64,000 nucleotides of DNA from Capitulum mitella (lineage: Eukaryota; Arthropoda; Thecostraca; Pollicipedomorpha; Pollicipedidae), in assembly GCA_030062745.1 (NCBI GenBank), contig CP099839.1:13356544-13420543 (forward strand). The letters run 5' to 3'. Both the position numbers and the translations under genes were made by a program. This document shows, in pieces, positions 53,501-55,039 of the stretch. The number at the start of each line of letters is the position of its first letter. The stretch's first letter is position 1. Below the pieces are notes generated by a model. The model was not told the origin of the DNA. It saw only the letters and a list, made by a program, of their open reading frames with translations, and did not search any database.

Positions 53501-55039
53501 GAGCAATCAAAATAAATATCAACTGACAAATAGTTTCACATGTATGCAATGTTAACATGAAGATTCCAGCCTGGTAAGGTACAACAGCCTTGACATTCAG
53601 TTCTCACCTTACAATTCAAGGCATCACCACAGGTTACAAATGGGCTGTGACAAAAGCCATAATATTCTAAACAGCATTATCAGATCACAAGCCAGATAGG
53701 ATTTTTCATGCTCACAATAAAGCAAAATATTGAAGAAAATGAATTATGACACAATAATCAATCAGTAATGGCATGCCATATATAAATTATGGCATAAATA
53801 ATCAATTAGTAAATCAATCACAGTATGCTTCAGCAATTCAATGCACAAAAACCATCCTATATACCAGAATATTTGAGCATTTTACTGACTTTACATGACA
53901 ATTTTTGTTTTTAACTGCACTCTGAGACAATGTGACATCATATATGACCAATTAAAAATGCACAAATGCTAAGATGAGCATTGCAAACCCCACAGATTTT
54001 GATATATGTTTAAACCATGTATGGCTATATTATTTTTTTCTCTTTTAACATTATGCTTAAATGCTATTATTGCTCTGACATTCATTTAAAATTTCTCTTC
54101 TAATTAACATTTAAACATTTAGCAATGAAATTCTTTAACATTATATCCTATCAGTCAGCAATCCTTTAGAAGCCCACGCCATAAACCAAGCACACTGGAT
54201 GACACATATACGGCGCGCGTGGCAAAAGGAGACGTCAGCTGTTGCAAGAAACGACAACATTATGCACTGGAGCTCAAAGTCGTAGATCACCTACTATTCA
54301 CTCTTGTTCTACACAGTAGGTTAGGTTAGGTTAGGTTAGGTTAGGTAAGGTTAGGTTAGGTTAGGTTAGGTTAGGTTAGCGAATAGTAGGTGATCCACGA
54401 CCCTGGAGCTCCAGTGCATAATGTTGTTGTTTCTTGCAACAGCTGACATCTCCTTTTGCCACGCACACTGTATATGTGTCATCCAGTGTGCTTGGTTTAT
54501 GGCGCGCGCTTCTAAAGGATTACCCTATCAGTCTAAGCCTTCCATGTTCAATTGTTACCTGCCAAATAACACACTACATGGCACAAGTCAATGAACATGG
54601 AAGACAGTGGCATATCATCAATGGTGGATATTAACCTAAGCTTTACAATTATCTATGTTTCTTGATACTTCTATACATTTCTCAGAAGTCCAATGCAGAA
54701 AGCATATGCAACATTGCTACCTAAATTTGGAAAGTTAACAAACTTGCAGCATTTCCTTCAGCCTGCAATTTAAAAGAACATGATAATAATACAGCTTTTA
54801 ATACAAACCTCAATATCACTGTAGGATTTAAATGAGGCTATGGCAAAGCCATCAATTATGTCTTCCTCAAACAAAGGTTCTCTCAGCTTTTTCCTTCTGT
54901 TTGGTGGTTTTGAAGGATTCTTTTCTGCCAGCTCTTCATCACCCGTCTCATTGCCGTTTTCCACATTCTTCACACCCAAGGCCTTCATACGCAAGGCCCG
55001 AGCCCGCCTTCGGTTTCGCTGTCTCACATCTCTTTCCAT
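37633..55039 (-). CDS. AUTS2: AUTS2/tay family chromatin regulator, 13 coding exons
   Basis: Thirteen exons join with consistent phases into 3465 nt, 1154 residues plus stop: 54809-55039, 53304-53417, 52982-53014, 52694-52723, 48660-48702, 47557-47696, 46594-47358, 44965-45100, 44195-44379, 42895-43359, 39831-40050, 38840-39029, 37633-38545. Diagnostic blocks are EEDIIDGFA (exon 1), [13 protein letters not shown] (exons 3-4), [12 protein letters not shown] and GPPSYLR followed by a histidine-X repeat (exon 9), [15 protein letters not shown] (exon 11) and LDPWAR-FARPP (exons 12-13), in the order found in human AUTS2. In vertebrates AUTS2 works with a PRC1 complex and recruits p300 through the HX repeat to activate transcription; tay is the fly homologue. 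Most of the rest is disordered Pro/Ala/Ser sequence. The stretch before the WNAMH block seems short, so a small exon between 40.1 and 42.9 kb may be missing from this model. A non-coding 5' exon is likely. Confidence 0.92.
38840..39029 (-). CDS. AUTS2: AUTS2 coding exon 12
   Basis: The exon encodes [18 protein letters not shown], a Pro/Gly/Leu-rich stretch and GPLDPWAR. The last motif corresponds to HEPWNR of vertebrate AUTS2. The acceptor is ccgtcgacag and the donor CCAG|gtgagt; phase 1 in, phase 2 out. Confidence 0.9.
39831..40050 (-). CDS. AUTS2: AUTS2 coding exon 11 (conserved core)
   Basis: The exon encodes [20 protein letters not shown], equivalent to the KPGKWCAMHVHIAWQIY core of AUTS2, followed by a Gly/Leu segment and nine alanines. 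The acceptor is gtccgcag and the donor CTGG|gtaagg; phase 0 in, phase 1 out. Confidence 0.96.
40075..40330. repeat. Degenerate ACCGGACAG minisatellite in an AUTS2 intron
   Basis: Irregular units of about 25-30 bp built on accggacagtgggaggg, starting about 25 bp upstream of the exon 11 acceptor. No exon is visible within it. Confidence 0.6.
41200..41490. repeat. Degenerate tandem repeat with gactcggaacac core
   Basis: About five units of roughly 50-60 bp share actcagaa/ggaacac, gactgacggtgaccg and ctgtaa. Similarity falls off toward the higher coordinates. It lies in the intron between AUTS2 exons 10 and 11. Confidence 0.5.
42073..42212. repeat. 70-bp tandem duplication
   Basis: Two adjacent units starting catgggaagaacaa and containing cgcccctggctgtattcagg, with only a few differences. 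It is intronic and no coding meaning is seen. Confidence 0.85.
42535..42905. repeat. 44-bp minisatellite overlapping the exon 10 donor
   Basis: About eight units with a 44-base period; the ctttgcag anchor recurs at 42719, 42763, 42807, a variant at 42851, and 42895. The last unit supplies the end of AUTS2 exon 10 and its GT. Confidence 0.75.
42895..43359 (-). CDS. AUTS2: AUTS2 coding exon 10 (Pro-Ala repeat)
   Basis: The exon has 155 codons, phase 0 at both ends. It starts [17 protein letters not shown] and [16 protein letters not shown], which resembles the FYRHSLFHSYPP region of AUTS2, then runs into about 45 Pro-Ala dipeptides, and ends [14 protein letters not shown]. The repeat is encoded by a (GGAGCC)n-like tract. 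The donor GCAAAG|gtaggc lies in the last unit of a 44-bp minisatellite. Confidence 0.8.
42957..43235. repeat. (GGAGCC)n-like coding repeat
   Basis: Variants of GGAGCC/GGCGCC/GGGGCC hexamers on the plus strand. On the minus strand this is the in-frame Pro-Ala tract of AUTS2 exon 10. Confidence 0.9.
43546..44194. other. AUTS2 intron, AT-rich, nothing recognised
   Basis: Contains [21 protein letters not shown] low-complexity sequence at 43640-43760. No exon is visible. Confidence 0.5.
44195..44379 (-). CDS. AUTS2: AUTS2 coding exon 9 (HX repeat)
   Basis: The exon encodes [17 protein letters not shown] and [17 protein letters not shown], then [11 protein letters not shown]. All three parts are landmarks of AUTS2; the histidine-X repeat is the segment reported to contact p300/CBP in vertebrates. 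The acceptor is gtgcccgacag and the donor CCGCTG|gtgagc; phase 1 in, phase 0 out. Confidence 0.95.
44965..45100 (-). CDS. AUTS2: AUTS2 coding exon 8
   Basis: The exon encodes [15 protein letters not shown], a PPPPP run and [10 protein letters not shown], with donor GTAAGC, phase 1 out. The acceptor gggctcggag is chosen because it alone gives phase 0 in; a stronger-looking ggcag at 45140-45144 would break the frame. The 5' limit is the least certain of this gene. Confidence 0.6.
45133..45330. repeat. 25-bp minisatellite with 75-bp higher-order unit
   Basis: Three different 25-bp units (agctgccggacagacgg..., agctgtcgcgcatacgg..., agctgccggaaacatg...) occur in the same order twice, giving a 75-bp higher-order repeat, then decay. 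The array lies just upstream of AUTS2 exon 8. Confidence 0.85.
46594..47358 (-). CDS. AUTS2: AUTS2 coding exon 7 (long disordered exon)
   Basis: The exon has 255 codons, phase 0 at both ends, from the acceptor tccgccag to the donor GCGGAAG|gtacgc. It begins with a Ser-Pro repeat ([15 protein letters not shown]), continues with degenerate Tyr-Pro-Ser/Gly-Pro-Gln repeats such as GYPGPQPAP, and ends with [13 protein letters not shown] and a basic AKRK. It is predicted to be disordered. Confidence 0.8.
47505..47537. repeat. (CCGGA)n microsatellite
   Basis: Six perfect CCGGA units in the intron just downstream of the AUTS2 exon 6 donor. Confidence 0.9.
47557..47696 (-). CDS. AUTS2: AUTS2 coding exon 6
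   Basis: The acceptor is acatttgcag and the donor CAGCAG|gtaacg; phase 1 in, phase 0 out. It encodes KEPVPAATA with a short alanine run, then a Ser/Thr-rich segment ending in PPSCQQ. No conserved motif is recognised beyond the position and phase. This is where the gene becomes strongly CpG-rich. Confidence 0.75.
48150..48212 (+). repeat. tRNA-derived SINE remnant
   Basis: TCTTCCCGTCCTGGCAAGAC followed by AGGTTCGGGTCG matches the second half of the copy at 28483-28552. The A box is decayed. It lies in AUTS2 intron 5. Confidence 0.4.
48660..48702 (-). CDS. AUTS2: AUTS2 microexon 5 (43 nt)
   Basis: The acceptor is ctgctttcag and the donor is a perfect GTAAGT; phase 0 in, phase 1 out. It encodes [14 protein letters not shown], parallel to the ASDASSEKLF segment of AUTS2 that follows the CDSDSD motif. 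The single trailing A is completed by AG of exon 6. Confidence 0.82.
48703..50845. other. AUTS2 intron 4, no exon recognised
   Basis: CpG-rich intronic sequence with degenerate repeats of the ccgcacagaccac type at 48830-48990. No coding match was found. Confidence 0.5.
50850..51545. repeat. 33-bp minisatellite, about 21 units
   Basis: Tandem units of gacaccgccggacagcac plus agtcagacgacaacg, 33 bp, so that all frames stay open. The minus-strand frame reads as an 11-residue repeat ([11 protein letters not shown]), which is a consequence of the unit length. Intronic in AUTS2. Confidence 0.93.
52535..52582. repeat. (TA)n microsatellite
   Basis: Run of TA dinucleotides with one TACA interruption, in AUTS2 intron 4 about 110 bp past microexon 4. 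Confidence 0.95.
52694..52723 (-). CDS. AUTS2: AUTS2 microexon 4 (30 nt)
   Basis: The acceptor is ctcttttgcag and the donor AAAG|gtaagg, leaving ten codons, [10 protein letters not shown]. Read directly after exon 3 this gives [11 protein letters not shown], which parallels GYFCDSDSDQ of vertebrate AUTS2. Skipping it would keep the frame. Confidence 0.88.
52982..53014 (-). CDS. AUTS2: AUTS2 microexon 3 (33 nt)
   Basis: The acceptor is cttgtgttgcag and the donor TTTT|gtgagt, leaving 33 nt in phase 0 that encode [11 protein letters not shown]. Human AUTS2 has SLGTGYF at this place. It is too short to be found by ORF length. Confidence 0.85.
53304..53417 (-). CDS. AUTS2: AUTS2 coding exon 2
   Basis: Thirty-eight codons, phase 0 at both ends: [18 protein letters not shown], then a basic GRRKKN segment. 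The acceptor is gccatttcag and the donor CTCAG|gtatgt. Position and basic character match the region after EEDIIDGFA in AUTS2 proteins. Confidence 0.85.
54157..54523. mobile_element. Palindromic foldback MITE with TTAGG core and 10-bp target duplication
   Basis: Two arms of about 141 bp (54160-54300 and 54380-54521) are inverted copies at roughly 90% identity, starting AATCCTTTAGAAGC. Between them are about 12 TTAGG units (54317-54380). The direct repeat CCTATCAGTC flanks the element at 54147-54156 and 54524-54533. Long inverted repeats with a 9-10-bp duplication are typical of Mutator-like elements; no transposase is present. It sits in AUTS2 intron 1. Confidence 0.8.
54809..55039 (-). CDS. 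AUTS2: AUTS2 coding exon 1
   Basis: The exon encodes residues 1-77: a basic Arg-rich start, an acidic stretch, [11 protein letters not shown] and the family signature [13 protein letters not shown]. The ATG at 55039 follows an in-frame GTG. The acceptor cttttcatttcag at 55083-55095 places 43 nt of 5' UTR in the same exon. Donor GTTTGT, phase 0. Codon use is AT-rich and CpG-poor, unlike exons 6-13. Confidence 0.93.

Follow-up and report, generated by a model that had tools for sequence, protein, structure and literature searches.

A probable non-autonomous foldback transposon with a TTAGG core in the genome of the thecostracan Capitulum mitella

How a run of TTAGG, the arthropod telomeric repeat, came to lie in the loop of a long palindrome is the question raised by positions 54147-54533 of a 64,000-nucleotide stretch of the Capitulum mitella genome (NCBI GenBank assembly GCA_030062745.1, contig CP099839.1, positions 13,356,544 to 13,420,543 of the forward strand), termed here the window. 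An earlier note, made from the sequence alone, had described the locus as a mobile, Mutator-like foldback element with two inverted arms of about 141 bp, about 12 TTAGG units between them and a 10-bp direct repeat at both ends. The present analysis indicates that the locus is probably a 368-bp non-autonomous foldback transposon, most likely moved by Mutator-type machinery, with a 9-base target duplication and with TTAGG riding in its loop.

Across 54147-54533 the order of parts, read directly from the window, is a 10-base direct repeat, left arm, spacer, TTAGG array, right arm and the direct repeat again. The left arm (54157-54301, plus strand) has the terminus AGCAATCCTTTAGAAGC and the right arm (54380-54524, minus strand) the terminus GGTAATCCTTTAGAAGC when read inward, both being delimited by inverted-repeat search and alignment. 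The repeat finder returned the arms as two inverted blocks, one of 116 nt (94%) and one of 24 nt (92%). Treated as one unit and aligned with gaps, the arms are 91% identical over 145 positions, 13 of which are substituted, and the alignment has 2 gap columns. A 15-base spacer that the arm alignment places on the left only, without a counterpart on the right, connects the left arm to the core (54302-54316, plus strand). The core itself (54317-54379, plus strand) comprises 12.6 copies of TAGGT according to Tandem Repeats Finder (TRF), with 96% matches and TAAGG as its single interruption. It is composed of tandem TTAGG units and is not terminal in the window, since non-telomeric sequence lies on each side. 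Both the arms and the number of units in the core were thus found much as the earlier note had given them.

The palindrome and its flanking repeat were compared with several chance backgrounds. Folded as single-stranded DNA, 54157-54523 reaches -145.8 kcal/mol against a shuffle mean of -42.5 (n = 100; z -23), while the minus-strand RNA fold of the element gives -266 against -94 (z -29). When the window was scanned in overlapping 2-kb blocks, the element came out as the top inverted match (E 6e-95). The direct repeat CCTATCAGTC is present at 54147-54156 and 54524-54533 and occurs on neither strand elsewhere in the 64 kb, the expectation from shuffles (n = 100) being 0.00. Among 200,000 random point pairs (starts 52.1-60.0 kb, spacing 250-1500, repeat at most 3 bases from the points), 52 were flanked by an exact 9-base repeat and 11 by a 10-base repeat, rates that are slightly low because pairs falling inside the element were skipped yet kept in the denominator.

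The limits of the element depend on how the direct repeat is parsed. A 10-base duplication leaves the ends one base out of register (AGCAATCC versus GTAATCC), whereas a 9-base duplication, CTATCAGTC, brings them into register as AGCAATCC and GGTAATCC, two transitions apart. The left copy of CTATCAGTC occupies 54148-54156 and extends at its longest reading to the 10 bp CCTATCAGTC from 54147; the right copy, an exact repeat, occupies 54525-54533 (both plus strand). The 9-base duplication is preferred because both ends are then equal in length, and the tenth matching base of the flanking repeat would be a chance C. On these grounds, which come from one locus, we infer an element of 368 bp at 54157-54524 with a 9-base target duplication. 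The direct repeat of the earlier note is exact at both ends, although the register of the ends makes nine bases the better parse.

A transposed terminal-inverted-repeat element is the simplest reading of the locus, because the inverted arms are flush with an exact 9-10-base duplication, and a mobile origin of 54157-54524 is likely on this structural evidence. The element is short and bounded by terminal inverted repeats and a target duplication, and in the stop-to-stop list it holds no wholly internal frame of at least 60 codons; these are structural features of a miniature inverted-repeat transposable element (MITE), a class that is also characterised by multiple related copies, of which the 64 kb holds one. 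A non-autonomous DNA transposon of foldback form would have inserted at this position and duplicated nine target bases, and a transposase supplied in trans, most likely a Mutator-like one, would have moved it. No host function is indicated for the element. Mutator-like elements (MULEs) leave target-site duplications of 8-11 bases, and a duplication of about 9 bp is seen here at one locus, as CTATCAGTC (9) or CCTATCAGTC (10). The terminal inverted repeats are long (145 positions, 91%), a trait that is not diagnostic of Mutator alone. In the published work, a 9-bp target-site duplication is described as typical for MULEs (PMC4486113), and most foldbacks seem to belong to Mutator, with exceptions (PMC4079207). 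A Mutator-like label is plausible by analogy, as an attribution from duplication length and arm length only and not a demonstrated membership.

Several observations weigh against this reading. The outermost ends differ by two mismatches (A/G and C/T), the target duplication is supported by a single locus, and no second copy of the arm was found in the 64-kb window at E 1e-5. Homologues were likewise not found in prokaryotic, plasmid and viral DNA collections, a result that is nearly uninformative for an animal element. No transposase was seen in Pfam scans, which took in 10 distinct frames of the window. In a survey of arthropods, complete Mutator-like elements were present in 222 of 4268 genomes, with inverted repeats of 13-1193 bp, mostly 20-95 bp (PMC13359780). 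By comparison, arms of about 145 bases are within the arthropod Mutator range yet not typical of it, and the superfamily being uncommon would lower the prior for a Mutator-like element. The mobile foldback of the earlier note accordingly keeps the junction of its arms with the duplication and is left without a second copy in the window, while its Mutator-like assignment agrees with duplication and arm length and is left without a transposase among the frames scanned.

The same type of insertion could also have been made by another cut-and-paste superfamily with duplications of 8-10 bases (Merlin, IS4EU, P or hAT-like), which we regard as unlikely. Merlin duplicates 8-9 bases and IS4EU about 10, whereas piggyBac, with its TTAA duplication and CCC... 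ends, was rejected as a candidate, the flanks being CTATCAGTC and not TTAA. Such an origin would accord with superfamily evidence that consists of duplication length and arm length only, and with the low frequency of complete Mutator-like elements in arthropods (222 of 4268 genomes; PMC13359780), but Mutator is the commonest placement of foldbacks (PMC4079207), and a 7- or 8-base reading leaves extra exactly matching bases outside the duplication. A non-mobile local inverted duplication, produced by template switch, would agree with arms that are unmatched elsewhere in the 64 kb; it gives no reason to expect an exact direct repeat of 9-10 bases abutting the arm ends and appears very improbable. 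Palindromes are a recognised class of artefact, so an assembly or library origin (a read-through hairpin or a chimeric inverted copy) was also weighed. From such an event near-identical arms and no duplication are expected, whereas here 13 of the 145 aligned positions differ between the arms, mostly by transitions, gaps come in addition, and the flanking direct repeat is present, which makes an artefact scarcely credible.

The divergence between the arms fits the history of an inserted foldback transposon. Transitions account for 12 of the 13 differences and a transversion for the remaining one, and 8 of the 13 concern a CpG in one arm or both; they look like the ordinary decay of arms that were once more similar. 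The supposition that the core is much younger than the arms is not needed, because the core has 1 interruption in 63 bases against 5 non-CpG arm differences in 145 positions, a rough argument from difference counts.

TTAGG is not peculiar to one element. A scan of the whole window for (TTAGG)n, in which at least 23 of 30 bases had to match, returned four stretches (32043-32086, 32822-32887, 32957-33083 and 54309-54393), which form three clusters. With TTAGG-like clusters at two other places in the window, the 368-bp element would not be the sole route to interstitial TTAGG. The stretch at 32043-32086 is degenerate, matching at best 26 of 30 bases, and lies in the loop of a second, diverged foldback at 31898-32205, identified in the inverted-repeat scan, with arms at about 31898-32005 and 32112-32205. 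This foldback consists of two overlapping inverted pairs, 31898-31939/32164-32205 at 81% and 31919-32005/32112-32200 at 71% identity. The arms reach a score of 49, whereas 1000 dinucleotide shuffles gave at most 31; however, 1 of 202 other block pairs in a background control (37.5 kb, GC-rich) scored 60, which makes this inverted repeat less certain than the one in the 368-bp element. By eye, the arms of the second foldback seem to be made up of degenerate units about 16 bases long. Aligned locally, the two foldbacks match best over the TTAGG part and weakly in the arms. Around the second foldback (left ends 31870-31924, right starts 32180-32239), a search for direct repeats of 9-11 bases, allowing one mismatch, or of 7-8 bases without mismatch found none, and because a target duplication is not recognisable its status as a transposon is not established. 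The third cluster (32822-33083, minus strand; TRF and TTAGG scan) comprises two TTAGG/CCTAA arrays in a 136-bp unit that is tandemly duplicated at 96% (32749-33083) within 1 kb of the second foldback, and the inverted-repeat scan in 2-kb blocks lists no foldback around it.

Random placement of three clusters put at least two of them into the two loops 42 times in 2,000,000 trials, a figure that is post hoc, the loops having been chosen from the pattern, and serves as a pointer and not as a test. Foldback loops may be places where TTAGG grows or is captured. The stronger proposition, that they are recurrent sites of expansion or of telomere-repeat capture by telomerase at hairpin-tip breaks, with unrelated foldbacks converging on the same content and mobile ones spreading TTAGG, strikes us as rather improbable.

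Within the 368-bp transposon, the TTAGG core would be a simple repeat in the loop, probably grown from a short seed by slippage or unequal exchange. MITEs with internal simple repeats are known (PMC9659126). As an alternative background, TTAGG may simply be common in genomes of this kind: among the microsatellite types in fosmid ends of the shrimp Penaeus monodon, AACCT ranked twelfth by frequency (PMC3124438). A different account, which concerns the core only and is compatible with a mobile element, holds that TTAGG was added after insertion by telomerase or related repair at a break in the hairpin tip. The hairpin tip would be a natural break site, the core lies at the loop beside the unmatched 15-base left spacer, the second foldback has dissimilar arms and likewise a TTAGG-like loop, and in mammals telomeric repeats appear suddenly at break sites, for which telomerase has been proposed (PMC7215372). 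In contrast, simple-repeat growth inside MITEs suffices as a cause, TTAGG-type arrays are found outside foldbacks too (32822-33083), and about 350,000 junctions from breaks induced in cultured cells included no insertion of this type (PMC7215372). Telomerase repair of the core is conceivable, if somewhat unlikely, and we rank it second to slippage growth together with TTAGG abundance.

The foldback transposon proposed here shares features with several known systems. MuTAnT, a Mutator-like foldback of Medicago, is similar in size (292 bp, against 368 here) and has 144-bp inverted repeats and 9-nt duplications, but it belongs to a plant, inserts into TA microsatellites and is accompanied by 218 related elements and a putative autonomous parent; the available text mentions no telomere-like core (PMC4486113). 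Tetris of Drosophila, whose ends are common with the MITE DAIBAM, is a non-autonomous foldback with 8-10-bp duplications and tandem repeats, and was placed in Mutator on grounds of structure and duplication; its tandem repeats (TIR-220) lie inside its inverted repeats, whereas the 5-base repeat of the C. mitella element is in the loop (PMC4079207). The lepidopteran (GTCY)n MITEs are short inverted-repeat elements with a hitchhiking microsatellite (cited in PMC9659126), although their repeat unit is not TTAGG and they are likened here by description only. Short interstitial telomeric repeats of mammals are also short runs of telomere repeat away from chromosome ends; these differ in having a TTAGGG unit, and a setting in the loop of long inverted repeats is not described for them in the available part of that report (PMC7215372).

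Transposons that carry simple repeats are known, and a telomere-repeat core is an unusual variant of them. No arthropod foldback or MITE with such a core was found in the literature searched, which covered titles and the openings of abstracts in part and constitutes weak evidence of novelty; papers on an ostracod (PMC7998251) and a fungus gnat (PMC12051294) describe no telomere-core foldback or MITE in their available portions. Should the element have copies, it becomes possible to test locus by locus where the scattered TTAGG tracts of the genome came from, and empty sites together with sister copies would separate transposition of TTAGG as cargo from telomerase repair at the hairpin tip. If it is single-copy, the locus amounts to a commonplace, decayed insertion that contains a simple repeat.

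Wider searches for relatives of the element gave no match at E 1e-5 in phage and plasmid collections, and the whole window has no match in Rfam at gathering scores. Scans with arm patterns returned no stretch in prokaryotic genome contigs on either of two occasions, and 0, 37, 9, 1 and 1 stretches in viral contigs. Re-alignment of the whole element to the latter, which took in the first 46 loci (best E 8e-4 among the matches listed) and two further ones, recovered the pattern itself plus at most about 10 bases and scattered weak matches, and these stretches were judged to be chance and rejected as relatives.

Other features of the window include an open stretch on the minus strand at about 54809-55048, which reads DGFAIASF followed by a possible splice donor, as judged by eye. 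It may resemble AUTS2/tay-type proteins; it has no Pfam match, and its three PDB matches (E 1.3 or worse) are to another protein. If it is an exon, the intron that follows it contains the foldback element. At 21445-22646 and 60235-61443 lie two copies of a 1.2-kb sequence that are 91% identical and have the ends CCCTATTCCCGG...CCGGGAATAGGG, the former with TTAA on both sides and the latter on the right side only; the pair looks like a non-autonomous element of piggyBac type. Positions 3350-3405 and 43510-43565 form a dispersed inverted pair (56 bases, 93% identical), whose first copy starts with a GTTGGTTGGTT-type stretch. A 1080-codon open frame at 12729-15971 contains 20 low-density lipoprotein (LDL) receptor class A stretches (Pfam), and a weak, below-cut-off Pfam match to the ligand-binding domain of neurotransmitter-gated channels is located at 35.8-37.0 kb; both point to an animal genome, and within the window the TTAGG motif alone points to an arthropod. 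A 33-base tandem repeat occupies 50871-51549, with about 21 copies in TRF.

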